From contig JAAUSC010000025.1 in assembly GCA_012031965.1 (NCBI GenBank), forward strand, positions 1 through 49,164: a stretch of DNA of 49,164 nt, given 5' to 3'. The notes under the pieces were generated by a model, which saw nothing but the letters and a program-made list of their open reading frames with translations, was not told the origin of the DNA and made no database searches. The DNA comes from Scytonema sp. RU_4_4. GTDB taxonomy: Bacteria; Cyanobacteriota; Cyanobacteriia; Cyanobacteriales; Nostocaceae. A program made the translations under genes and the position numbers. Positions 4,610 to 46,792 of this stretch are shown one piece after another. Position 1 is the stretch's first letter. Every line of letters starts with the position of its first letter.

Positions 4610-5499
4610 GTGCATTCACAGTATGTGGAGTTCACTTCAATGGTCAGCCAAGCTTTGTGCGATCGCGCCTTGCGCGGCTCCCTTCGAGAGCATCGCCCGG
4701 TTAGTCAGTGGCTTGTCTTGAAATCAACGCTCTCTCACTGGCTCATGACACCAACGTTTGTTGTATTGCCACTCCTGATTTTAGTCTTTTTACCTTGGAT
4801 GATTCCACGCCTACGTTGGAAGCGTTTTTGGAGTTGTTTGGGAACTGTGTTACTCGTGGTTTACTTTTCTGCCACTTTTCCACTCACCATTGCTGTCGCA
4901 AAAAAAGGATTAGTTACTTTTATTCCCCCCGATCCTGGTACAACCGCAGATGCAATTGTTGTACTCGGACGGGGGGAACCATTTAGAGATTCAAGGGTTC
5001 AAGTTGCGGCTGAACTTTGGAGGAATCATCGCGCACCATTCATTTTTGCCAGTGGTGCAGGAGATGGTTCTGAAATTGTCGAACAACTAAAAGCAAAAGG
5101 CATTCCTGATGCTGCATTGGGCGAAGAACACTGTTCTCAAACGACGAAGGAAAACGCACTGTTCACCGCATCAATGCTACAACCACGCGGAATCAAGAAA
5201 ATTTTGCTAGTCACAGATTCTCCACACATGCTCGATCGCGACTGACTTTTAAAAGTGTGGGGTTTGAAGTGATTTCGCACACAAGTCCCATACCATCTCA
5301 ATTAACTTCGACTAGAAAAGCAATGCTCATGTTTTATGAGTATATGGGGTTAGTTAGCTATGGTTTGCGAGGAAACTTTCTTAAACAAAACTTACCTCAA
5401 CAGGAAAATCCACCTGTTGCTAAAATCAAGAATTCAGCAAATTTCGCTCCACAAAAACAGCAAATTCAGGATAACAGAGATACAAGTTATGCTCTTTAA
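4610..5499 (+). pseudogene. YdcF/DUF218-family membrane protein, frameshifted
   Basis: Two reading frames make one DUF218 (YdcF-like) protein. The first has membrane segments (FVVLPLLILVFLPWMI, then VLLVVYFSATFPLTIAVA), the domain start ADAIVVLGRG, and TDSPHM. It runs into TGA just after the HIP1-like bases near 5231. The second resumes with VGFEVISHTS and continues to 5499. Adding one base near 5231 would restore HMLRSRLTFKSVGFE, so the break is a one-base deletion or a sequence error. The start is also unclear: a GTG at 4610, or an ATG at 4623 (MWSSLQWSAKLC) that lies 12 bases after AAGGAG but is in another frame. Between the two lies a 40-bp repeat at 4659-4698 that may have shifted the frame. 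DUF218 proteins are linked to cell-envelope processes; the function here is unknown. Confidence 0.75.
4659..4698 (+). repeat. 40-bp interspersed repeat, copy 1 (inside DUF218 gene)
   Basis: A GC-rich 40-bp block starting GCGATCGCGCC and ending GCATCGCCC. Its reverse complement matches 44899-44938, inside the S9 peptidase gene, at 37 of 40 positions by my count. The ends GCGAT/ATCGC are inverted. It probably inserted into the N-terminal coding region. Confidence 0.75.
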
Positions 5500-23165: not shown

Positions 23166-24077
23166 TTAGGCTAAACCCTTGGCTTTGCGAAACTCGCTGA
23201 CAACTTCTTTAACATCACGTAACTCGCCCTCAACCAAATAGTTTAACTGGCGCATTTCATCTGCCGAAAATTTTCCCACAAGTTGGGCGATCGCCTTCCT
23301 TAATTGCGGGTATTTTTGCAAACTTGCTTTACGTACTATTGGAGTCGCTTCATAAGGTGGAAAATACTGCTTATCATCCTTTAACACAACTAAACCCAAG
23401 CGAGAAATTTGCCCATCAGTCGAATTGCCATTTACCATGTCTACTTGCTTTTGCACCAGCGCTCGATAGATTAACCCCAAATCCATGATGCGAGGAGAAT
23501 GGGCAAAGCGTAAACCGTAGGTTTTAGCCAATCCAGGAAAACCATCTTCTCTTTCTATAAATTCGTAGCTACAACCACCACGCCATTGAGGTGTATACTG
23601 AGCAGCTTCAGAAAGAGTTGTCATATTGTAACGCCTTGCATCTTCGCCGCGTATAGTCATCACAAAAGTGTTTTCAAAGCCCAAGGATTCCATCACTTCT
23701 AAATTGAACTGTTGGGCGTAAGCTTGTTTTAAACGTTGATAAACTTCTTTTGGATCACTAATTGCTTTTTGCTTCAAAATTCCAGTAAAAGCCGTACCTG
23801 TGTATTCAACATAGGCATCAATTTTGCCAGCAGTCATTGCTTTATGAGTCACAAAAGAACTCGTAAAGCGGCGACGTTCAACTTTTAAATTTGTCGTTGC
23901 TTCTATTTGCTGCGCCAAAAGTTCGCTTAAAATATCTTGTTCAGTAAAACCCTTGGAAGCAACAACAATATCTCCACCACCACTGCCATTTGTGTTGGGA
24001 TTACAACTAGCAATTCCCAATACCAAAACAAAAGTTAAAAGGAAAAAGGCAAAAATTTTTTTCAATTTTTTTTTCAT
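23166..24077 (-). CDS. osmoprotectant ABC transporter substrate-binding lipoprotein
   Basis: A 303-residue solute-binding protein of the OpuAC/OsmF type, which binds quaternary amines such as glycine betaine or choline. It starts with a lysine-rich lipoprotein signal MKKKLKKIFAFFLLTF and the lipobox GIASC, placing it on the outer face of the inner membrane. The domain opens with IVVASKGFTEQDILSELLAQ, a clear family mark; later GGCSYEFIEREDGFPGL and MVNGNSTDGQI form ligand-loop regions. It is the last gene of an ATPase-permease-binding-protein operon. The ligand is predicted by family only. Confidence 0.88.
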   Translation of the reverse strand: MKKKLKKIFAFFLLTFVLVLGIASCNPNTNGSGGGDIVVASKGFTEQDILSELLAQQIEATTNLKVERRRFTSSFVTHKAMTAGKIDAYVEYTGTAFTGILKQKAISDPKEVYQRLKQAYAQQFNLEVMESLGFENTFVMTIRGEDARRYNMTTLSEAAQYTPQWRGGCSYEFIEREDGFPGLAKTYGLRFAHSPRIMDLGLIYRALVQKQVDMVNGNSTDGQISRLGLVVLKDDKQYFPPYEATPIVRKASLQKYPQLRKAIAQLVGKFSADEMRQLNYLVEGELRDVKEVVSEFRKAKGLA

Positions 24078-24142
24078 TTATCTCTCTTCCTCCTCCTCTG
24101 TGATCTCTCTTGCCTGGTGCGGTTTATTCATGACAACACACC

Positions 24143-24802
24143 CTACTTTCTTGTAATTTTCAATTTCCCCTCCAACCAACCAATGCCAAAATCAGCAACT
24201 AAAGCAATGATCGCCGCAGGAATCGCACCAGCTAAAAGTAACTGATTATTCACCACTGCAATACCTCGAAAAATTAACTCCCCTAAACCACCAGCACCAA
24301 TGGCTGCAGCAATAGTAGCAATCCCAATCGCAATCACTGTCGCCACCCGCACTCCTGCCAAAATCACACTCAGCGCCAAGGGAATTTCCACCTGAAGCAA
24401 TAGTTCTCTATCTGTCATTCCCATCCCTCGCCCAGCTTCAATGATGGCAGAATCCACTCCAGTGATACCCGTATAAGTATTGCGAATTATCGGTAATAGA
24501 GAATACAGAGTCAAAGCAACAATTGCAGGGCTTGCTCCAATTCCGCCGATACCAGGTACGGGAATAAGCAAGCCAAATAGCGCCAGACTGGGAACAGTTT
24601 GCAGAATATTCGCAATCCCAAGAATAGGTTGGCGGAGGTTTTTGCGTCGGGTAATTAATATACCAAGCGGAATACCTACGAGAGTGGCAATCCCGATAGA
24701 AACCACTACTAGCAGCAAGTGTTCTAGAGTGCGTTCCAGGATTTCCGAGGCATATTTTATCAAGAAGAAGTCATTAAAATTCATAGCGTTGGTTTGAGAC
24801 AT
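24143..24802 (-). CDS. osmoprotectant ABC transporter permease
   Basis: A 219-residue inner-membrane permease of the OpuBB/ProW type with about five membrane segments (LLLVVSIGIATLVGIPLGIL, IVALTLYSLLPIIRN, ALSVILAGVRVATVIAIGIA, LLLAGAIPAAIIALVADFGI). The EAA coupling loop, IEAGRGMGMTDRELL, is well conserved. It overlaps the upstream ATPase gene by 22 bases on the same strand, so they are co-translated, and it precedes the binding-protein gene. The three together make a complete importer, likely for a quaternary-amine compatible solute. Confidence 0.9.
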   Translation of the reverse strand: MSQTNAMNFNDFFLIKYASEILERTLEHLLLVVVSIGIATLVGIPLGILITRRKNLRQPILGIANILQTVPSLALFGLLIPVPGIGGIGASPAIVALTLYSLLPIIRNTYTGITGVDSAIIEAGRGMGMTDRELLLQVEIPLALSVILAGVRVATVIAIGIATIAAAIGAGGLGELIFRGIAVVNNQLLLAGAIPAAIIALVADFGIGWLEGKLKITRK

Positions 24803-26618: not shown

Positions 26619-26678
26619 ATATTATCAAGTTGACTGTAAAGTTGGATTGCGTTCTTCAAAATTGGTTGACATATTCCC

Positions 26679-27035
26679 TCAAGCAATAAGTAATCTCGCC
26701 TTATCTGCTTGCTCTTGCACAGTTTCCTTGAGCCACTCACTGATAGCTTTACCCAGTTTGACAGCTACTGTTTGATCTACAGTCAAAGTCTGTTGGATTT
26801 TTTGCTGCAACTCTGGTTTTTTCTGACCCGCTAGTTCGTCAATTCTTTTATCTGAAACCAATGCACGTATCCAACCAGGAATATCTGTTTCCTTAACTAT
26901 AGACTCACCGAGAAAGTAAGCTAATATCCCAACTATCGGTGCAATGATGCCAGCAAAAAGTAGGATATGAAATAATCCTGCTAAAACAACACCTACGATT
27001 AAAGCAACAAGGTGTCCAACAAATATAGAAAGCAT
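26679..27035 (-). CDS. free-standing copy of the Hsp70-like protein's membrane tail
   Basis: A 118-residue protein almost identical (116 of 117 aligned residues) to residues 544-660 of the 660-residue ATPase encoded at 32323-34305; the only difference I see is Gly for Arg in DELAGQKK. It has an ATG start, two hydrophobic segments (LVALIVGVVLAGLFHILLF and IIAPIVGILAYFL) and an amphipathic, charged C-terminal helix. The DNA copies differ at about 10 of 355 positions, 9 of them silent, suggesting the short gene is under selection. It is the last gene of the island's minus-strand series, about 100 bases after the penicillin-binding fusion. It may form a membrane anchor or partner; function unknown. 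Confidence 0.7.
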   Translation of the reverse strand: MLSIFVGHLVALIVGVVLAGLFHILLFAGIIAPIVGILAYFLGESIVKETDIPGWIRALVSDKRIDELAGQKKPELQQKIQQTLTVDQTVAVKLGKAISEWLKETVQEQADKARLLIA

Positions 27036-27140
27036 AATTTAAATGTTATTTTGGGTAAACAAATAAAATCTGCTATTGTTGCAGCAATACATCTTTATCT
27101 CGAATTGCTATTACACCAATACATTCCCTATTCCCATTTG

Positions 27141-30100
27141 TTATTTAGTAATTCTACCCATATAATTCCCCCACAGTTGAGATGCTGGAGCGCTGCTGCT
27201 AGATGTTGGGGAATTGTTGTCATTTCCTAACCAAATACCAGTGACCAGTCGCCGACTGGGAATAAAGCCAATAAACCACAAGTCAGCGTTCTCATCTGTT
27301 GTACCAGTTTTACCCGCTTCCCCCAGTCCTATGGCAGCACTGCGACCAGTACCGTTTGTGACTACGCCGCGCAGCAACCGAGTCATTGTATTGGCTACAT
27401 TAGTTTGCAGCACTCGTCTGTTGGCGTCTGCATCTTGGTCATAGGAGTAAATCACGCGGCAAGTTTTCAGGTCGTTTCGGTCGCGGCAATCACTGCTATC
27501 TAGAATTCGGCTAATTGCATGGGGGCGATTCCACACACCGCCATTACTAATAGCGCCAAATGCACCGGTCATTTCCAGAACATTGACTACACTTTGACCG
27601 AGCACTAAGCCAGGAACCGGATCTAGCTTTGATTTTACCCCTAATCGTTGTGCCATTGCTACGACTTTATCTAGCCCGACTTCTTGGGCAACCCTTAATG
27701 CAATGGGATTTTCCGATAATGCTAGCCCTGTGGCGATATCCAAACTAGCTGCGCCAGTACGACAGGGTTTATAGGTAAAGCCTTGCCAACGAAAAGGGGA
27801 GCAGGAATATGAGTTTCCCGGTGAAATCCCTTGCTCAATAGCGGTAGTATAAGCAAAGATGTTAAAGGTAGAACCTGGTTGTCTTTTTGCCTGAACAGCA
27901 CGGTTGAACTGGCTTGTTTGATAATCGGTGCCTCCTACCATTGTCAGGATGGCTCCATTGCTGAAATCAAGAGTCACCATCGCTCCTTGTGAAAAATTAG
28001 AAGTTGACCCAGCATTGCGGACATGATTACGCAATGCTGTTTCTGCTTGTGCTTGAATTGCTGGGTCGAGCTGAGTTTCAATGATAAAGTTCCCTTCTGT
28101 TGCCAGTTCCTTTCCCAGAATATTTTCTAGTTCTTGAAAGACATAATTGTAAAAATAAGGAGCAATTGTCTTAGCTTGCTGTTCGCATACTTTAGGGCTA
28201 ATTTCAATGGGCGATCGCCTAGCTCTGTTGTACTCGTCTTGTTTGATTTTGCCCATCTCCAGCATCCGCTTTAAGAGTCGATTGCGGTACTCAATGGTTG
28301 TGAGCTTATTCTGGCTATCTCCACAAAAATCGAAGGCGTTAGGATCGGGTAAAATTGCCGCTAATGTCGCGGCTTCAGACAGAGTTAATTCTTTTGCTGA
28401 CTTGTCAAAGTAATACCGAGCAGCATCCTCAAAGCCGGAGGTATCTGCTCCTAAGAAAACCCGATTTAAATAAGTCAGTAAAATTTCATCTTTACTGTAA
28501 TATGTTTCTAATTTCAGGGAGACAACCGCTTCTCGAAGTTTACGCCCAAGGGTATCTTGCCTACCGACGTAATCACGGAACAAACTCCTCGCAACTTGCT
28601 GCGTGACTGTACTTGCTCCTTGCTGGATATCACCGCTGTTGCTATTTAGAAACACAGCTCGCAAAATCCCTCGTAGATCAACTCCAAAGTGCCAGTAATA
28701 ACGGCTATCTTCAGAAGCAACGACTGCGGTGGGTAAGTAAGGACCAAAGTCCTGCAACCGCTTCATATCTATATGAGTAGTCATCCGAGGTTCGCGTAAC
28801 TTGGTGACTCCATCACGAGCGTAAACAACCACTGGTGCTCGTGTTGGTCCAGGTAAGGGTTTGACAGCAAATTTCAGCGATTCAACGCCAATAACCAGCG
28901 CCATAAGGGTAGTGGCTCCAGCAACCCCATAAGCTGCCCAAGTTGCTGCTCTGACATACCAGGGAGGTGGATCGACGTATTGCAGTCTCACGGAGGCGGC
29001 GAGTTCTGGAGGTCCGAGGGTGAGGATATCGCCGTGACGTAACTCCAAAGAATTGATCCGACGTTTACCTCGATAAATTCCATTCGTTGAGTTTTCGTCT
29101 TTAATGACGAAAACAGGTTGTCTTTGAGTCGAATCTCGTGACAGTGACAGGTGAATTTGGGCGACAACTGGGTTACGGACAACAATATCGCAGGATTTGG
29201 AACTACGACCTAGAATGTAGCGATCGCCCAACAAGGGATACACCTCTGCCTTATCCGCCCCCGCATCCTGTACCCAGAGTTCTGGTACTCTGGCATTAGG
29301 CTCGAGCGCCAGTTTAGAGAAATCGACTCTCGCTTGACTTGTCTGTACTGCTTGAGTTAGCTGAGCAAGCAAAGTTTGTGGTTGTCGAGATGGTTGGGGA
29401 GAACGTCTCGGTCTCTCCTTCGGAATGAGTTCTTCAAAAAAATTTCGTAGTTTCGAAAATATTTGGCTAGATGAGCTCGATTCAGATGTCCTCTCTTCTG
29501 GCGGATGGGTGGAGGTAGGGTTCGGGCTGTCAATATCTTGACTAGATTTCAAATTTACTAAAGCCGTATTAATCCAACTTTGTTCAAAAATGCGCTCATA
29601 CAAGCGGTTATAAACTTTTAACCTTCCTTGTTGCTTGACCACTAAGCCCGATAGCCGCAATTCCATTTGTTCGGGACTGTCATCAGCTAGAATTCCTCCC
29701 TGTAGTAAAATTTTTTTATAGAGATCTAGCCGCCGTTTGGTGTTGCCTTTTCCGCTAAGAATGCGCTCTTTGATCGTTGTAAAATGCTGTTGATGATCCT
29801 GCGCTTGCCAATTCTGAATTATGTGCAAAAACACAATTTCCTCAATCAATTGCGCTTCTTGGCCAACACGACTAGGCGAGGAATAGGTGCGAATCAGTTC
29901 GCACAGCCGTTGGGTTAGAAATGGTTGTCCACCCGTCCACCTTAGGACCTCTTTTAGCACTGCTTGAGGATTGGTAACTTTGTTCTGCAATCCCTTCTGT
30001 AAAGGCTCAGTTTGCTCGAGTTCAAAGCCAGTCAGTTCAATTGGTATACCAATATTAAAAGTTGAGTTGATTTTATCTCCAATCAAATCCGCAGGTGTCG

Positions 30101-30656
30101 CTACCCCTAGTAGTGCAAAGGTGAGGCGCTCGAATTTTGGTTTGGACGCGCGTTTGTTATAGCAAGAACGGATAAAATTAAAAAAATCGTCTTTGAAATT
30201 TAAGCTGAGAACACTATCAATTTCATCGACGAATATAACAATATTCTGAGTAATCTTCTCAAGCAGTTCTTCTTCAATAAATTTACTCAACTTCACCAAA
30301 GAAACAATATGGCTGTTCTCACCCCACCATTTTCCTTCGTCAATATGTAAACCGAACTCGTTTACCAAACGACTGAAAAAACCCCCATAAAATTCATCAT
30401 CTGTAACACCATGTGTACAAAGCTCCCTCATTTCAATTGCAGCACAGACAAACCCTTCGTTTTTTAGGGTTTTCATCGTTTGTACGCGCAAGCTAGACTT
30501 TCCCATTTGTCGGGAGTTCAACACATAACAAAACTCTCTAGCCTTTAACCTTTCATCGAATTCTGTGTCTGCTTGCCGCCTTACATAAGTACTGGCAGAT
30601 TCAGGTAGACTTCCTCCAACTTGATATTGGTAACCTGAATTAGGTGTTGCACTCAT
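27141..30656 (-). CDS. AAA-like ATPase / FHA / class A penicillin-binding protein fusion
   Basis: A 1171-residue fusion. Residues 1-365 are an AAA-like (AAA_35-type) ATPase with Walker A NSRQMGKSS (Lys53) and Walker B IVIFVDEID (139-147). Residues 365-450 are a Ser/Pro-rich linker. FHA domain: YILGRSSKSCD to ENSTNGIY (479-527), a phosphothreonine reader. One membrane segment spans about 571-591. Then a GT51 glycosyltransferase with Glu649 in SEDSRYYWHFG, ASTVTQQ and RKLRE, all intact, and a transpeptidase with SEN (981-983) and KTGT (1116-1119). The catalytic SxxK is STFN (929-932): the lysine is Asn. So glycan polymerisation looks possible, cross-linking doubtful. FHA-PBP proteins are usual in cyanobacteria; the added AAA-like module is not. 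Domain order places the ATPase and FHA in the cytoplasm. Confidence 0.9.
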   Translation of the reverse strand: MSATPNSGYQYQVGGSLPESASTYVRRQADTEFDERLKAREFCYVLNSRQMGKSSLRVQTMKTLKNEGFVCAAIEMRELCTHGVTDDEFYGGFFSRLVNEFGLHIDEGKWWGENSHIVSLVKLSKFIEEELLEKITQNIVIFVDEIDSVLSLNFKDDFFNFIRSCYNKRASKPKFERLTFALLGVATPADLIGDKINSTFNIGIPIELTGFELEQTEPLQKGLQNKVTNPQAVLKEVLRWTGGQPFLTQRLCELIRTYSSPSRVGQEAQLIEEIVFLHIIQNWQAQDHQQHFTTIKERILSGKGNTKRRLDLYKKILLQGGILADDSPEQMELRLSGLVVKQQGRLKVYNRLYERIFEQSWINTALVNLKSSQDIDSPNPTSTHPPEERTSESSSSSQIFSKLRNFFEELIPKERPRRSPQPSRQPQTLLAQLTQAVQTSQARVDFSKLALEPNARVPELWVQDAGADKAEVYPLLGDRYILGRSSKSCDIVVRNPVVAQIHLSLSRDSTQRQPVFVIKDENSTNGIYRGKRRINSLELRHGDILTLGPPELAASVRLQYVDPPPWYVRAATWAAYGVAGATTLMALVIGVESLKFAVKPLPGPTRAPVVVYARDGVTKLREPRMTTHIDMKRLQDFGPYLPTAVVASEDSRYYWHFGVDLRGILRAVFLNSNSGDIQQGASTVTQQVARSLFRDYVGRQDTLGRKLREAVVSLKLETYYSKDEILLTYLNRVFLGADTSGFEDAARYYFDKSAKELTLSEAATLAAILPDPNAFDFCGDSQNKLTTIEYRNRLLKRMLEMGKIKQDEYNRARRSPIEISPKVCEQQAKTIAPYFYNYVFQELENILGKELATEGNFIIETQLDPAIQAQAETALRNHVRNAGSTSNFSQGAMVTLDFSNGAILTMVGGTDYQTSQFNRAVQAKRQPGSTFNIFAYTTAIEQGISPGNSYSCSPFRWQGFTYKPCRTGAASLDIATGLALSENPIALRVAQEVGLDKVVAMAQRLGVKSKLDPVPGLVLGQSVVNVLEMTGAFGAISNGGVWNRPHAISRILDSSDCRDRNDLKTCRVIYSYDQDADANRRVLQTNVANTMTRLLRGVVTNGTGRSAAIGLGEAGKTGTTDENADLWFIGFIPSRRLVTGIWLGNDNNSPTSSSSAPASQLWGNYMGRITK

Positions 30657-30689
30657 TAAGTATCATCTCCTGAGCAATTGCAGCATTAC

Positions 30690-32330
30690 TTACAAACGAT
30701 TACGGAAATACTGACTATACAACTTATAGCGCGGCTTCGCTTGATTGTTTTGCAGTTTCACCAGTCCTAACTCATCTAACTTCACTGCTAGATCAGGATT
30801 TAAGTCTAAGTTTAATTTCACTGGGTTTACGTCGTTTGCTATGACTACCTTTTTGAGTTCTGCAGCTAGCTGTGGGTTATTTTTTAATTTAGTCAAGTGT
30901 TGTCTCAAGTGGTCGCGATAAATTCCATTTTCACTAGAAGCTGTTTCCAACAGATGCTCAAGCGCCATATCCAGCCGCGCTACCTGTTCGAGGGCTTTCG
31001 CTACTAGATAGGGATGCCCTCCTATCATATCCATTAGCTGCTGCACTTGAGTTATGTTCCAGTTCAGTCCATATTGCTGTGCTAAATCTTGCACCTGTCT
31101 CTGGCTGAAATCTGTTAATTTTATCTCTGTCCCTGCATTAAACGGTGACTGATTTATATCGATCTGAGTGTAAACTTCGGTATGCAACACGACCAGCCGC
31201 ATATGTCTCCAAAGCTCACGAGTTTTAGCGTCCTCATGCCAGGTTCGCAGCATACCCAAAAACTCTCCAGCAATTTCCGGATGAAGGAAAAGTTTGTCTA
31301 CCTCATCTAAAGCTAAGGCTAGGGGACTTTCTCCAGGCAACAGATACCTTTCAAAATAGGTTCTACACTTAATTTTGCTATTACCAACACTCCTACTCCA
31401 GTGTTCATCCACTGGTTGAGTTAGCTCTAGCTTTACAGAAACGCTAGTACAGAACCACTGTAAGAATGTATCCAAGTTGCTGAAATCTTTTGGCGTTCCC
31501 TCCCGCAGGTTCAAAGCTACTGTTCGAAAGCCATGCTTATCTGCCTGTTCCAGAATTTTGGACATTAGCAAAGTTTTGCCCATTTGCAAAGGAGCTTTGA
31601 TTCGGATCAAGGCACCAGGCTGCAAAATTTCCCTGTAACACCGAGATTCATCAGGTTCTCGCTTCACATAAGCCGAATCGAAATGGACTTGCCCCCTTGG
31701 ATAACTCGAAAGGAGGTTGTTGGGTATAACAATTAGGTTCTGTGTAGAGACTTGGTGTCGAATCCGCGCTTCGTATTGGGCGAGAGCAAGTTTTGCAGCT
31801 GCCGATCCGCGTCTTACCAATTCTTCTTTTTGTGCATTAGTCAGGTCAAACGTTAGGGTGTCGAAACCTGACACATCAATTTCAATATCTATATAGTTGG
31901 GGTCTTGAGCGATATTTTGAGGAGGTAGGCTTCCACGTCTCATCATTAGATTGATCGTCGCCTGTGCTATCTCCCACACCTTCGGTGACTCGAAGTACTT
32001 TAGTGGTTGTTTGAACCGTACACCAATCAATGCACAGTTTTCCTTTTGCGCTCGTGAATATAAAAGTTCGACTGGTAAATTGAGTAGCAGTCCACCATCT
32101 ACTAATTCTTGCCTTTGGCTAACCCGTGACATTGGTTTGAAAAGACCAGGAATCGAAATCGAAGCACGTACAGCAAATGAGACAGTTGTGCTTGGCTCTT
32201 GATCTTTGTCGAACACTACGGGGAATCCTGATTCACTGTTCAAGTCGCAGGCTACGATTGCCAAGTAGATATTCTTAAACTGATACAACTTAGCAAAGGT
32301 AATATCTGTACTGCATACTCTCTCAAGCAA
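30690..32330 (-). CDS. truncated patatin fused to an AAA-like ATPase
   Basis: A 546-residue frame. Residues 1-190 are the C-terminal half of a patatin-like phospholipase, including the catalytic Asp78 in LVDGGLLLNLPVE, but the nucleophile motif GxSxG and the oxyanion loop are missing. Residues 200-540 are an AAA-like ATPase with Walker A APLQMGKTLL (Lys252) and Walker B PLALALDEVDKLF. The only start is a TTG at 32330 inside the stop region of the upstream gene (8-base overlap), with a stop codon just before it in frame. So the gene has lost its 5' part at the junction with the upstream gene's duplicated tail. It cannot be an active lipase, though the ATPase could still be made by translational coupling. 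Confidence 0.75.
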   Translation of the reverse strand: MLERVCSTDITFAKLYQFKNIYLAIVACDLNSESGFPVVFDKDQEPSTTVSFAVRASISIPGLFKPMSRVSQRQELVDGGLLLNLPVELLYSRAQKENCALIGVRFKQPLKYFESPKVWEIAQATINLMMRRGSLPPQNIAQDPNYIDIEIDVSGFDTLTFDLTNAQKEELVRRGSAAAKLALAQYEARIRHQVSTQNLIVIPNNLLSSYPRGQVHFDSAYVKREPDESRCYREILQPGALIRIKAPLQMGKTLLMSKILEQADKHGFRTVALNLREGTPKDFSNLDTFLQWFCTSVSVKLELTQPVDEHWSRSVGNSKIKCRTYFERYLLPGESPLALALDEVDKLFLHPEIAGEFLGMLRTWHEDAKTRELWRHMRLVVLHTEVYTQIDINQSPFNAGTEIKLTDFSQRQVQDLAQQYGLNWNITQVQQLMDMIGGHPYLVAKALEQVARLDMALEHLLETASSENGIYRDHLRQHLTKLKNNPQLAAELKKVVIANDVNPVKLNLDLNPDLAVKLDELGLVKLQNNQAKPRYKLYSQYFRNRL

Positions 32331-32676
32331 TCAGCAATCTCGCCTTATCTGCTTGCTCTTGCACAGTTTCCTTGAGCCACTCACTGATAGCTTTACCCAG
32401 TTTGACGGCTACTGTTTGATCTACAGTCAAAGTCTGTTGAATTTTTTGCTGCAACTCTGGTTTCTTCTGACGCGCTAGTTCGTCAATTCTTTTATCTGAA
32501 ACCAATGCACGTATCCAACCAGGAATGTCTGTTTCCTTAACTATAGACTCACCGAGAAAGTAAGCTAATATCCCAACTATCGGTGCAATGATGCCAGCAA
32601 AAAGTAGGATATGGAATAATCCTGCTAGAACAACGCCTACGATTAAAGCAACAAGGTGTCCAACAAATATAGAAAG
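32322..32676. repeat. 355-bp duplication, second copy at 26678-27032
   Basis: The two blocks align without gaps and differ at about 10 positions (97% identity by hand count). One copy ends the 660-residue ATPase gene, the other is a separate short gene 5.6 kb downstream. Direct repeats this close could recombine and delete the two genes between them. Confidence 0.9.
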
Positions 32677-34305
32677 TCCGCTTAAATCATCAAAAGATAT
32701 AGATGTAGGAACCTTTTGTGTGTGGTCACCCAAATCAATTGTTTTGCTACCAAATGTGCCTAATGGTAAACCATACTTCCTACAAATTGAATCTGTTTTT
32801 TCTCTGACCTCGTTTTGAACTTTTGACAGCCACTCAACTAAACAGGTTGTCATTTTGTCATTAGCATCATTTCCTGTTAGCCAAGCTTTGGCTTTCTGCT
32901 CTATTTCTGACTCAAGAGATGAGAGCGTTATGATGTCTCTGTTCCGCCAAGATTGCACACTTGGCTTTATAACTTTGTCTACCAAATCATTTGCTAATTC
33001 TTCTGCTAATTTTTCCCAGAATGCGGGTATGTTATTTCCAACAATACCTGTCAGTTCTCGGTCAAGGAATTGGCTAATTTCTTCCATAAATCCTTCTGTG
33101 CGAATATATACCCGTCCCCAACGTGCCAATCCTCTAGCAATACAAAGCTCAGGTTCTCCATCTCGTTTACAAGGTAAATCAGGAAATACTTCTTGGCATA
33201 TTTCCAGAACAAACCACATTTTAGAAGCACTACCTGTGAGGAGAATTGCACTCGGTTGAATGCTTATTTGTTCTAACTTTTGTTTGACTGTCTGCAACTG
33301 GTCACGGAAAGCATCACACCAACTTTTATTACCAAGTTCTGGCAGAGGTTGACTCAAGATTGCGTTTATCATTTTGCCATTGACCAAAGGCAAAAATTTA
33401 AATCTTCTTTGAATATCTTCAATACCTACGTTAACGATGGTTTCTTCGTAAGAATCTTGATAGGTAAAATACTCTTCTTTTGCTTTCCGACATCGAAGTT
33501 CACAGCGATTTTTGTACAATGGGTTTTGCTCCAAAATATTTTCAAGCTGTGAAATTTCTTCTAGTTGCAAAATCTCTTCATCTCTGAGAATATCTCCAAG
33601 TCGTAATATTTCTTCACGTCCTTCTCTATATTGTTTCTGACATTCCAAGGTTTTCTGAAGAATTTGTTTTTCAATAAGGGAAGCACCTAAGTCGTGTCCA
33701 AAATCGATTGGTGTGTCAGACATACCCTTGACGAGGGTGTAGTCTGTAGTGGACGATCCAATGTCAATGACTAGTACTGATTTTTGTAATTCTTCTATGG
33801 TGAATATACCACTTTCTTTAGCGTGCATTAAAGCAGCGCGTGACTCCTTGACTACGGTTGTATTTGGCAAGCAATCTTCAGAAAGGAGTTGTTTGTAACT
33901 CTCAATTTCTTCTTGCCACCATCCTGATGGACAACCTATAAAAAAGTAGTTGTTATCTGTTGATTGAATTTGTTTGGTATCAAACAAATGCTTATAAATA
34001 GCATTGACAAATTCTTTGAGATTTTTTCTGTATACTATTTCATTAAATTGCCGAGATTTCAAAGCAATTTCAAAGATGGTTGCATCAGGCATCTGACACG
34101 CCATTTCGCCAATGAAAATTCCTTTTTTAGGATGATGGGCGATAGCGGTGATTTGGCTTTTCCTGTTATTAATGAGTAGACTTTGAGGAGTCGTTTCTGG
34201 ATTATCTGCTCGCACCCATGTTAGAGCTGTTTCTCCGTGTCCCAAATCAAACCCGATGATTTTGATATTGTGATAATCATGCATGAGTAACTCTGTTTGC
34301 TCCAA
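32323..34305 (-). CDS. Hsp70/actin-like ATPase with C-terminal membrane hairpin
   Basis: A 660-residue protein with the actin/Hsp70/sugar-kinase ATPase fold: phosphate-1 loop IGFDLGHGETALTW (17-30), phosphate-2 loop VIDIGSSTTDYT (179-190) and adenosine motif ILLTGSASKMW (354-364). Residues 205-300 are a charged, helical insertion. After about residue 545 two hydrophobic stretches (LVALIVGVVLAGLFHILLF, IIAPIVGILAYFL) anchor it in the membrane, followed by a charged helical tail. No standard substrate-binding domain of DnaK is seen. The gene follows the glycine-rich protein gene at 90 bases and overlaps the patatin/AAA gene. A role as a membrane-bound chaperone-like switch in a conflict system is inference. 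Confidence 0.85.
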   Translation of the reverse strand: MEQTELLMHDYHNIKIIGFDLGHGETALTWVRADNPETTPQSLLINNRKSQITAIAHHPKKGIFIGEMACQMPDATIFEIALKSRQFNEIVYRKNLKEFVNAIYKHLFDTKQIQSTDNNYFFIGCPSGWWQEEIESYKQLLSEDCLPNTTVVKESRAALMHAKESGIFTIEELQKSVLVIDIGSSTTDYTLVKGMSDTPIDFGHDLGASLIEKQILQKTLECQKQYREGREEILRLGDILRDEEILQLEEISQLENILEQNPLYKNRCELRCRKAKEEYFTYQDSYEETIVNVGIEDIQRRFKFLPLVNGKMINAILSQPLPELGNKSWCDAFRDQLQTVKQKLEQISIQPSAILLTGSASKMWFVLEICQEVFPDLPCKRDGEPELCIARGLARWGRVYIRTEGFMEEISQFLDRELTGIVGNNIPAFWEKLAEELANDLVDKVIKPSVQSWRNRDIITLSSLESEIEQKAKAWLTGNDANDKMTTCLVEWLSKVQNEVREKTDSICRKYGLPLGTFGSKTIDLGDHTQKVPTSISFDDLSGLSIFVGHLVALIVGVVLAGLFHILLFAGIIAPIVGILAYFLGESIVKETDIPGWIRALVSDKRIDELARQKKPELQQKIQQTLTVDQTVAVKLGKAISEWLKETVQEQADKARLLIA

Positions 34306-44386: not shown

Positions 44387-46792
44387 ATGGACAATTTCCC
44401 TATAAATCCCCCCATTATTGAACAATTCTGGCAATCTCCTCCAGAACCGATTAACCAAATTCTTGATGTTCCACCGCCACCCGCTATTTTGCTCTCTCCC
44501 AACAGAGAATGGATGGTAGAGTTGGAAAGACCATTGTTGCTTCCCATTTCCTTGCTTGCAGAAACGGAAGTTCCTTTGGCAGGTTTTCTTATTAATCCTA
44601 AAACGAATGCACCTGCTCGCTCTAACCCTTTTCAAAGCATGAGAGTTAGGACCCTCATCTCTGTTGAGATGAGTAAAACGGTGGCGCTTCCTGACGACGC
44701 CCAGATTGGTTTCTTAAAGTGGTCACCTGATAGCCGAAAACTTGCCTTTACTCTCACTCAAGCCACGGGATTGGAACTGTGGTTTATGGATGTTGCAGAT
44801 TTCATTCCCCAGCGGTTAACAGAGCCAGTTCTCAACGCTGCATATGGAGAACCGTATCGTTGGTTGTCAGATGAGACACTGATCTGCAAGTTCATTCCGG
44901 GCGATGCTCCAGAAGGGAGCCGCGCAAGGTGCGATCGCCCTAAGCCTCCTTCTGAACCAGCCGTTCCACCAGGACCCCTGATTCAAGAAAATCTGGACGG
45001 TAAAAGCCCAACTCGTACTTACACAAATCTACTGCAAAATCCTCACGATGAGGCGCTACTTGAATACTACTTAACCTCGACCTTGGAGAAAGTGACGCTA
45101 GATGGTCATCGCACTTTGTTAGTGTCTAGCAGTCTCATTCATGAAGCCATACCTTCTCCTGATAGCAAATTTATTCTACTCACCACGCTGCACCGACCGT
45201 TTTCTTACCAAGTTCCAATCTCGTATTTTCCCAAAAAAATTGAAGTTATTGATGATACAGGGAAATTGGCTTATGAAATTGCCGATATACCTCTTTTTAT
45301 CCGTCGTACAACTAAATTTGATGAAGTTCGCACAGGGCGGAGGGGAGTCTCTTGGCGCAGCGATGCAAAAGCGACATTATCTTGGTTAGAAGCTTTAGAC
45401 GAGGGTGATCCAACACGGGATGTTCCCAAACGGGATGCTTTATTTGAATTGGATGCTCCCTTTATCGATACACCAAAGCAACTTTGGCAATCCGAGTACC
45501 GCTTTCATAACCTTGCTTGGGGTAAAGAAGATGTCGCTCTGGTTTGGGAACGATGGTACGATACCCGCAAAGAACGAATCTGGCGTATCTACCCCAAAGC
45601 ACCTGAAACACCGCCACAACTACTCTTTGACCGCAGTTATGAAGATAAATACACTGACCCTGGGTCAACCTTGATGACTGTGGGACCTTACAGGTATAGG
45701 GTTTTGCGCTTTGCACCACAGGGCAATATCATTTACTTGAGTGGGCGAGGAGCTTCAGCCAATGGAATGTATCCGTTTTTAGATTGCTTGGATTTGGAAA
45801 CAGGAAACAAACAACGCTTATGGCAATGTCAAGACCCATATCTTGAGGAAATTTGTTATTTATTGGATGACGAAGCACAAACTGTGATCACTCGTCGCCA
45901 ATCTCAAACTGAGCCACCCAATTATTTTCTCTGGAACCATCAGGATAACCAGATTCCTATCGCGCTGACACATTATCAAGACCCTGCTCCCCAATTGGCT
46001 GGAGTTTACAGTGAGTTGGTGAAATATCAGCGAGGTGATGGTGTGCAACTGTCAGCGAAGTTATATCTGCCTCCTGGTTATGATACTAAGCGAGATGGTC
46101 CTCTGCCGATATTATTTTGGGTTTATCCGGAGGAGTTTAAAGATAAGGAATTTGCAGGACAGATTACGAAATCTGAAAACACTTTCAGCCGTCCCAATCG
46201 TGCTTCTGTTTTATTTCTACTAACGCAAGGCTATGCAGTTCTTTCTGGTCCTACTTTACCAATTATTGGCGAAGGTGATGCAGAGCCAAATGATACCTAC
46301 GTAGAGCAATTAATTGCTGGAGCACAAGCAGCAGTGAACTATGTGGTAGAGCGTGGTATTGCCGACCCCAATCGTATTGGTATTGGAGGACACTCTTACG
46401 GAGCGTTTACTGCTGTGAATTTACTTATACATACAGATTTATTTCGTATAGGTATTGCTAGGAGTGGTGCTTACAACCGAACCCTGACTCCCTTTGGTTT
46501 TCAAGGAGAGCAACGCAATTTCTGGGAAGCACAACAAACTTACATTCATATGTCTCCTTTTACTCATGCTGCAAAAGTTAAAGCGCCACTTTTGCTGATT
46601 CATGGAAAAAAAGATACCAATCCTGGTACTTATCCATTACAAACAGAACGACTGTATGAAGCGCTTAAGGGATTGGGAGCAACTGTTCGCTTGGTAGTAT
46701 TACCTTTAGAAGACCACGGCTATCGTTCTCGTGAAGGGGTTGCTCATGTCCTTTGGGAGATAATCAACTGGTGCGATAAGTATCTCAAATGA
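44387..46792 (+). CDS. S9-family prolyl-oligopeptidase-like peptidase
   Basis: An 801-residue S9 serine peptidase, with an N-terminal beta-propeller (WSPDSRKLAFTLT and PSPDSKFILLTTL are propeller blades) and a C-terminal alpha/beta-hydrolase. Triad: Ser670 in GIGGHSYGAFTA, Asp743 in HGKKDTNPGT and His777 in LEDHGYRSRE. No signal peptide is seen. It resembles plant and cyanobacterial glutamyl-endopeptidase-like S9 enzymes by overall plan. Residues about 172-184 (APEGSRARCDRP) are encoded by a 40-bp repeat (44899-44938) also found inside the DUF218 gene; it keeps the frame and lies in a loop rich in Pro. No ribosome binding site marks the start well. Confidence 0.9.
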   Translation: MDNFPINPPIIEQFWQSPPEPINQILDVPPPPAILLSPNREWMVELERPLLLPISLLAETEVPLAGFLINPKTNAPARSNPFQSMRVRTLISVEMSKTVALPDDAQIGFLKWSPDSRKLAFTLTQATGLELWFMDVADFIPQRLTEPVLNAAYGEPYRWLSDETLICKFIPGDAPEGSRARCDRPKPPSEPAVPPGPLIQENLDGKSPTRTYTNLLQNPHDEALLEYYLTSTLEKVTLDGHRTLLVSSSLIHEAIPSPDSKFILLTTLHRPFSYQVPISYFPKKIEVIDDTGKLAYEIADIPLFIRRTTKFDEVRTGRRGVSWRSDAKATLSWLEALDEGDPTRDVPKRDALFELDAPFIDTPKQLWQSEYRFHNLAWGKEDVALVWERWYDTRKERIWRIYPKAPETPPQLLFDRSYEDKYTDPGSTLMTVGPYRYRVLRFAPQGNIIYLSGRGASANGMYPFLDCLDLETGNKQRLWQCQDPYLEEICYLLDDEAQTVITRRQSQTEPPNYFLWNHQDNQIPIALTHYQDPAPQLAGVYSELVKYQRGDGVQLSAKLYLPPGYDTKRDGPLPILFWVYPEEFKDKEFAGQITKSENTFSRPNRASVLFLLTQGYAVLSGPTLPIIGEGDAEPNDTYVEQLIAGAQAAVNYVVERGIADPNRIGIGGHSYGAFTAVNLLIHTDLFRIGIARSGAYNRTLTPFGFQGEQRNFWEAQQTYIHMSPFTHAAKVKAPLLLIHGKKDTNPGTYPLQTERLYEALKGLGATVRLVVLPLEDHGYRSREGVAHVLWEIINWCDKYLK
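44899..44938 (-). repeat. 40-bp interspersed repeat, copy 2 (inside S9 peptidase gene)
   Basis: Reverse-complement match (37 of 40) to 4659-4698. With flanks it is bounded by GGGCGAT and ATCGCCC. Here the host gene stays in frame. Confidence 0.8.

Follow-up and report, generated by a model that had tools for sequence, protein, structure and literature searches.

We analyzed a contig of 49,164 nucleotides from the filamentous cyanobacterium Scytonema sp. RU_4_4 (JAAUSC010000025.1; hereafter, the window). One of its genes joins an AAA_35 nucleoside triphosphatase (NTPase) domain to a whole penicillin-binding protein (PBP) of the kind that carries an FHA domain (FHA-PBP). The gene is a single open frame beginning with ATG, and AGGAG, a ribosome-site-like sequence, stands directly 5′ of this codon (coordinates of all features are given in Table 1). 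In a Pfam scan of the chain all four domains exceeded the curated cut-offs, with 103.4 bits for AAA_35 (PF14516) against a cut-off of 27. The membrane segment came from a plain hydropathy scan and lies barely above the threshold of 1.6, at 1.62 in the fused copy and 1.61 in an ordinary FHA-PBP of the same genome. A preliminary description of this DNA had placed an ATPase, an FHA domain, a membrane segment, a glycosyltransferase and a transpeptidase in one chain, and the two scans together confirm that this chain is real. Its NTPase part is not eroded. The Walker A residues G52-K53-S54 and the aspartates D144 and D147 are invariant in 35 AAA_35 domains of the same type (type B, see below), and the domain departs from conserved columns three times, compared with zero to nine times in the other rows. 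A sequence comparison of the AAA_35 part with solved structures gave no match at E values up to 1, and no relative of it was found in a scan of viral contigs.

The ordinary FHA-PBP of this genome has 755 residues and is encoded on a separate contig (C27, locus L002). The fused copy is 89% identical to it over 755 aligned residues, and the DNA homology spans positions 27138-29404 with 87.9% identity. Met1 of the ordinary protein corresponds to residue 417 of the fused chain. Thus, the joint lies at residues 416-417, and the captured piece covers a coding sequence in full, from the start codon through the stop. The Ser/Pro-rich linker (residues 365-450) had previously been named as the likely fusion point, and the joint does fall inside that range. 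The DNA 5′ of the ordinary start codon looks alike, by eye, in five relatives, and it is missing from the fused gene. An origin of residues 396-414 from this 5′ non-coding DNA was also considered. That idea came from protein matches running through upstream stops and was dropped, because the DNA homology begins at the start codon. In a phylogenetic tree, the FHA-PBP part falls outside the ordinary copies of the genus, all seven of them, with a support of 99.

The fused architecture was seen in no other genome examined, which agrees with the preliminary description, where it had been called unfamiliar. Among the matches listed for 40 genomes (its own and 39 relatives, with at most 17 candidates scored per genome), no other genome had one match across both parts. 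Ordinary FHA-PBPs were found in 153 of the 155 genomes searched in the family and in 168 of the 176 searched in the order, two draws that overlap. Among the matches listed for these genomes, the open frames of FHA-PBPs have 619-952 residues, compared with 1173 for the window frame. Similarly, none of 67 loci from named genomes matches the fused query before residue 382, so none has the ATPase, and among plasmid records none matched 80% of the fused chain. Two other FHA-PBP loci were noted during the survey. The 952-residue frame, in genome G352 (L088), arises where LspA (read by eye) runs into the FHA-PBP without a stop, and it does not involve AAA_35. An FHA-PBP with an intact SxxK motif lies on a mobilizable Nostoc plasmid (L222:3848-8659) near genes for a Ser/Thr kinase and a PP2C phosphatase.

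Two residues that are kept almost everywhere have been replaced in the PBP part. The first is the SxxK lysine at position 932, which we take to be the catalytic residue of the transpeptidase. The window reads PGSTFN at this place, compared with PGSTFK in all 67 named-genome loci and, in a second set of relatives sharing members with the first, in 35 of 35. A lysine is also aligned here in two solved PBP1a chains (4oon and 3udf). The transpeptidase therefore has STFN for STFK, with SEN and KTG present. The second is the serine of the FHA motif at position 499, presumably a phosphate-binding residue. The motif is PVVAQIH in the window and PVVSQxH in 67 of 67 named-genome loci. The serine pattern was also found in 34 of the 35 relatives in the second set (the remaining one did not fit the pattern), and serine occupies this column in all members of a 30-relative alignment. 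In the solved FHA chains 2n84, 5yyx and 6ccd the residue is again serine, so that VAQIH of the window lacks the Ser of SxxH. The GT51 glutamates E649 and E709, assumed here to be the catalytic ones, are invariant in 25 sequences and kept in the window. Judged from these motifs, the glycosyltransferase would at most be the only part that could still act.

These replacements bear on the mechanism put forward in the preliminary description, in which an NTP- and phosphorylation-gated sensor acts directly on cell-wall synthesis. An active, gated synthase would agree with the presence of all domains in one frame and with the kept GT51 glutamates. However, K932N and S499A leave the transpeptidase without its SxxK lysine and the FHA domain without its phosphate-site serine, and the proposed mechanism is weakened by both. 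We regard it as very unlikely, and among the functional readings none has less support.

Table 1. Features of the fused gene, its partner and the inserted segment in the window.
Feature	Coordinates	Strand	Basis or remark
Fused gene: AAA_35 (type B), linker, whole FHA-PBP	27141..30656	-	1171 aa
AAA_35 NTPase domain, residues 15-316	29709..30614	-	Pfam 1.5e-29
Fusion point, residues 416-418; CCG-AGA-CGT opposite CCG-ATG-AGT of the ordinary start codon	29403..29411	-	DNA alignment
FHA domain, residues 480-548	29013..29219	-	Pfam 1.4e-13
S499A: Ser of the FHA VSxxH motif replaced by Ala	29160..29162	-	Alignment
Hydrophobic (membrane) segment, residues about 573-591	28884..28940	-	Plain hydropathy scan
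GT51 (Transgly) domain, residues 630-798; E649 and E709 kept	28263..28769	-	Pfam 6.2e-50
Transpeptidase domain, residues 891-1145; S929, S981-E982-N983 and K1116-T1117-G1118 kept	27222..27986	-	Pfam 6.1e-29
K932N: SxxK lysine replaced by Asn (PGSTFN)	27861..27863	-	Alignment
Partner gene A: 3′ part of patatin (no GxSxG) and AAA_35 (type A), truncated at the border of the insert	30690..32330	-	
Inserted segment, absent at the same site in G006	27033..32313	.	5.3 kb
Direct repeat, copy in the 3′ end of the Hsp70-like gene	32314..32676	-	363 bp
Direct repeat, second copy at the other insert border	26670..27032	-	363 bp; 96.7% identical

The PBP part also departs from its relatives at other conserved sites. 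At columns common to at least 29 of 30 relatives, the window copy has 10 departures; five control rows have 0, 3, 1, 1 and 0. In a rough test on invariant sites, the fused copy showed 26 private amino-acid changes and 12 synonymous ones, compared with 5 and 17 in L083, whose branch is similar in length (Fisher P = 0.001). The difference from the other 11 ingroup rows, which have 27 and 40 such changes when pooled, was also significant (P = 0.008).

The fused gene and its partner lie in an inserted segment. In the related genome G006, the Hsp70-like gene is followed directly by the DNA that flanks the far side of the insert in the window. The Hsp70-like gene is also found without the insert in G001, G002, G004, G005 and G011 (18-kb stretches), where the far flank is not collinear. 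The direct repeats at the two borders represent the last 363 bp of this gene, and their identity of 96.7% exceeds that between G000 and G006 in this region (roughly 91%). They differ from each other at 12 of 363 sites, which indicates that they are not one sequence placed twice. At these 12 sites, five of six relatives are nearer the gene copy, and G006 is nearer the other copy (6 to 4). No orthologue of either gene of the pair was found in the six other genomes of the genus, where the best AAA_35 matches were 62% and 61% identical and had no patatin part. The patatin domain of gene A is cut before its GxSxG motif at the insert border. It is likely that the fusion took place in an older lineage and that a recent import followed. 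The loss elsewhere of an old paralogue would be a less likely alternative to import.

In a draft genome of 400 contigs, one might also suspect that the assembly had wrongly joined an AAA_35 gene and an FHA-PBP gene. Such a chimera is unlikely in the extreme, because the flanks are collinear with G006 within one 49-kb contig and the ordinary copy lies on a separate contig, because the DNA of the two copies is just 88% identical, because the repeats differ, and because the frame is open across the joint. In addition, the fused copy has private changes of its own, and no long sequence is shared at the joint.

Three further observations concern the surroundings of the insert. The Hsp70-like gene (32323-34305) encodes a protein of 660 residues with a weak chaperone-like match (PRK11678, 7.2e-06), which is conserved in five of the six other genomes of the genus and in G011. 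The stretch 23296-24790, which extends over two transporter-like genes (labelled by eye), is missing from the collinear region of G006. An inverted repeat of 49 bp with 90% identity is found at 4652-4700 and 44897-44945, 40 kb apart.

Gene A ends 33 bp upstream of the fused gene on the same strand, and its AAA_35 domain is distant from that of type B. Such couples recur in other genomes. We defined in this analysis a two-gene A/B module, the B half of which has a type-B AAA_35, a membrane segment, a C-terminal module and an adjacent type-A gene on the same strand. The fused gene has all four. Among 11 A-type proteins scanned with Pfam (including L097, where A and B form one chain), we found TIR in six, trypsin in three, patatin in two and HTH_26 in two; two had no further domain above the cut-off. 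The B-type proteins vary at their C-termini. Among 22 scanned, six carried WD40, four TPR, two Amidase_3 (one of them also WD40), and one each HisKA, FHA, CHASE2 and GUN4; seven had none. This count leaves out loci where WD40 or TPR was judged by eye, and it includes one fragment with TPR whose AAA_35 is split over two frames (L103). Of these 22 proteins, 15 thus have a named C-terminal module, and in 10 of the 15 it includes recognition repeats (WD40 or TPR), in one case along with the amidase. A hydrophobic segment follows AAA_35 in 13 of 14 B proteins (the window protein, two amidase fusions and 11 others), and the one without it is the histidine kinase fusion. Matches to the type-B NTPase were obtained in 104 of 386 genomes of the phylum. 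NPHP3_N matched at least four of 20 scanned module proteins (8.6e-06 to 7e-04, one above the cut-off). In the open-access literature we found no description of this module, and nothing that joined an AAA-like domain, cyanobacteria and WD40.

The two halves have evolved together. The trees of the A and B domains mirror each other, with a Mantel r of 0.957 for 22 adjacent pairs and none of 5000 permutations as high, although r may be inflated because likeness to the window and to L092 guided the choice of loci. Only BLAST matches covering more than 80% of the query were kept for these trees. Four loci were dropped since their genes are not adjacent on one strand (L105, L112, L115 and L099), and L120 was dropped for having two B copies; when the four were included, r was 0.931 for 26 pairs. 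Two peculiar forms of the module were also seen. In the window's own genome, the halves of the module are naturally fused in one chain (L097:6923-10459), which contains TIR and the AAA_35 domains of both types. The B proteins of L118, L119 and L120 resemble one another in their last 450 or so residues, a region without a Pfam match in L118 and L120, the two that were scanned.

The nearest relative of the window pair is a pair in genome G009 (L092), which is its sister with a support of 100 in both the A and B trees. The A protein of this pair is a full patatin-AAA_35, whereas the window patatin is truncated. Its B protein reads EAD8-AAA_35-transmembrane segment-Amidase_3, whereas the window B protein has a PBP instead of the amidase and no EAD8. 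Among 217 genomes of the family, only G009, G425 and the window genome had matches extending into the patatin part, and among the matches listed for 388 genomes of the order no other covered the L092 amidase fusion. The L092 amidase has Asn where all 27 readable amidase loci and three solved amidases have Glu; the 30 loci surveyed came from 55 matches, and three did not fit the search pattern. The two sister pairs thus hold a wall enzyme each in the same slot, and in both enzymes Asn stands in for one catalytic residue, which is a striking parallel. A more distant relative was found on plasmid pNsp_e of Nostoc sp. ATCC 53789 (L220:2430-9322), where genes for Trypco1, trypsin-TIR-AAA_35 and AAA_35-WD40-Amidase_3 stand together. 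It resembles the window pair in having the same A/B module with a wall enzyme ending B, and differs in being plasmid-borne and in having WD40 in between.

Taken together, the fused gene may be read as half B of a module made up of two NTPase genes and belonging to the conflict, or nucleotide-binding leucine-rich repeat receptor-like (NLR-like), type, with the PBP in its slot serving as a wall sensor or an integrated decoy. We propose this reading tentatively and hold it at somewhat less than an even chance. The preliminary description had linked this kind of ATPase to conflict genes, and the relatives of the module do carry TIR, trypsin, patatin, EAD8 and Trypco1. In the proposed scheme, gene A would carry an executor (TIR, trypsin or patatin in the relatives) on one AAA_35, and gene B would be a membrane-anchored AAA_35 with a C-terminal slot accepting exchangeable modules. 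The slot would have received a complete FHA-PBP coding sequence. The transpeptidase and FHA ligand sites would then have been lost, and the rest of the chain would have stayed open and under constraint. An extracytoplasmic pseudo-PBP of this kind might bind wall precursors, peptidoglycan, or proteins and drugs of invaders directed at PBPs, without turnover. It could report wall damage or attack through the membrane to the NTPase pair, which would switch in response. As 10 of the 15 B proteins with a named module carry recognition repeats, a PBP that is probably unable to crosslink is best accounted for as a sensor or decoy, and the cell may use it as such, not for building wall. A narrower form of this proposal would be a bacterial counterpart to the integrated decoys of plants. 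The sensor half would have taken up a full copy of a wall synthase, disarmed it at the lysine and at the phosphopeptide site, and would show it outside the membrane as bait for attackers of the real enzyme, which seems rather doubtful to us. The slot would then be a fast-changing sensor socket, occupied by WD40, TPR, CHASE2, GUN4, an amidase or a PBP.

Several results weigh against a sensor or decoy. The amidase of the pNsp_e module retains its catalytic Glu (ILIETGF), so inactivity is not a rule for the wall enzymes in the slot, which may be effectors; the idea that all of them are inactive was dropped for this reason. Omega over the whole PBP is unremarkable (0.136-0.176 between the fused copy and the seven ordinary copies of the genus, 0.101-0.183 among those), so the case for a changed constraint comes from the conserved sites. 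A fold model of the whole chain, built with 24 relatives, was set aside as too poor (mean predicted local distance difference test score, 37), and PADLOC models matched neither gene of the window pair at E values up to 0.001. The executor patatin of the window pair is truncated. The pair may thus be broken, and the imported genes may have no function or may depend on a different A protein for signalling.

The last point leads to the possibility that we are looking at a decaying import, that is, a recently acquired fusion without function, whose partner was deprived of its catalytic half on insertion and whose PBP is drifting. The patatin cut off at the insert border before GxSxG, the excess of private amino-acid changes at conserved sites and the lack of an orthologous pair in the six other genomes of the genus are all consistent with decay. 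However, the gene runs for 3.5 kb without a frame break, keeps its AAA_35 motifs and has a ribosome-site-like sequence, and its PBP is still open although it branches outside the ordinary copies of the genus. As omega is also within the ordinary range, the fused chain is no free-drifting pseudogene, and the losses at universally kept sites stand out. We consider decay unlikely.

A second rival keeps the gene functional but turns the PBP into a suicide effector. The NTPase would unleash a bifunctional PBP that polymerizes glycan without crosslinking it, in a toxic futile cycle. E649 and E709 are kept and the transpeptidase lysine is lost, as this model would require, and the slot of two relatives holds a wall-degrading amidase, which in one of them has kept its catalytic Glu. 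It is a real rival because uncrosslinked glycan from synthases that are disabled or poisoned by beta-lactams is toxic in E. coli, as described in PMC5549755. On the other hand, 10 of the 15 named-module B proteins carry recognition repeats, not toxins, the GT domain itself has changed at P661L, V766A and V794L, and free glycosyltransferase activity would have to be restrained until a trigger arrived. A suicide effector is quite unlikely in our estimate, and we continue to prefer a sensor or decoy. Because FHA-PBPs are so widespread, an NTPase receptor with one built in would show how systems of this kind could keep watch over the wall. Since a disabled full-length copy exists alongside a working gene, the decoy idea would be directly testable in bacteria.

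Compared with the ordinary cyanobacterial FHA-PBP of locus L002, the window protein has the same FHA domain, membrane segment, GT51 and transpeptidase, from the first residue to the last. It differs in the AAA_35 placed ahead, the absence of a start codon of its own, its position in an insert, and the missing SxxK lysine and FHA serine. The module also resembles the NTP-dependent conflict systems with EAD and Trypco components (PMC7159879), since its relatives include EAD8 in L092 and Trypco1 in L220. In the latter, Trypco1 stands beside trypsin-TIR-AAA_35, which would tie the module to these systems. In that paper, inactive enzyme copies in conflict systems are proposed as decoys, and membrane-associated versions are described. 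In contrast, AAA_35 is absent from its main text, the scanned window genes have no MoxR or vWA, and no EAD or Trypco component was found by Pfam in the 10 window proteins scanned. In our literature search, integrated decoys were found for plant and fungal NLRs only and none for prokaryotes, and neither an inactive PBP as a sensor nor a wall-sensing bacterial NLR was found. By its layout, with an N-terminal effector and C-terminal sensor repeats when A and B are taken together, the pair may be a candidate STAND-type NTPase receptor. Paired NLRs of plants (PMC12856790) consist of an executor and a sensor NTPase, with a domain resembling a host protein fused to the sensor. The window pair is comparable to them by analogy only, and we do not claim homology; its B protein would be a membrane receptor, in which a PBP copy would take the place of that host-like domain.

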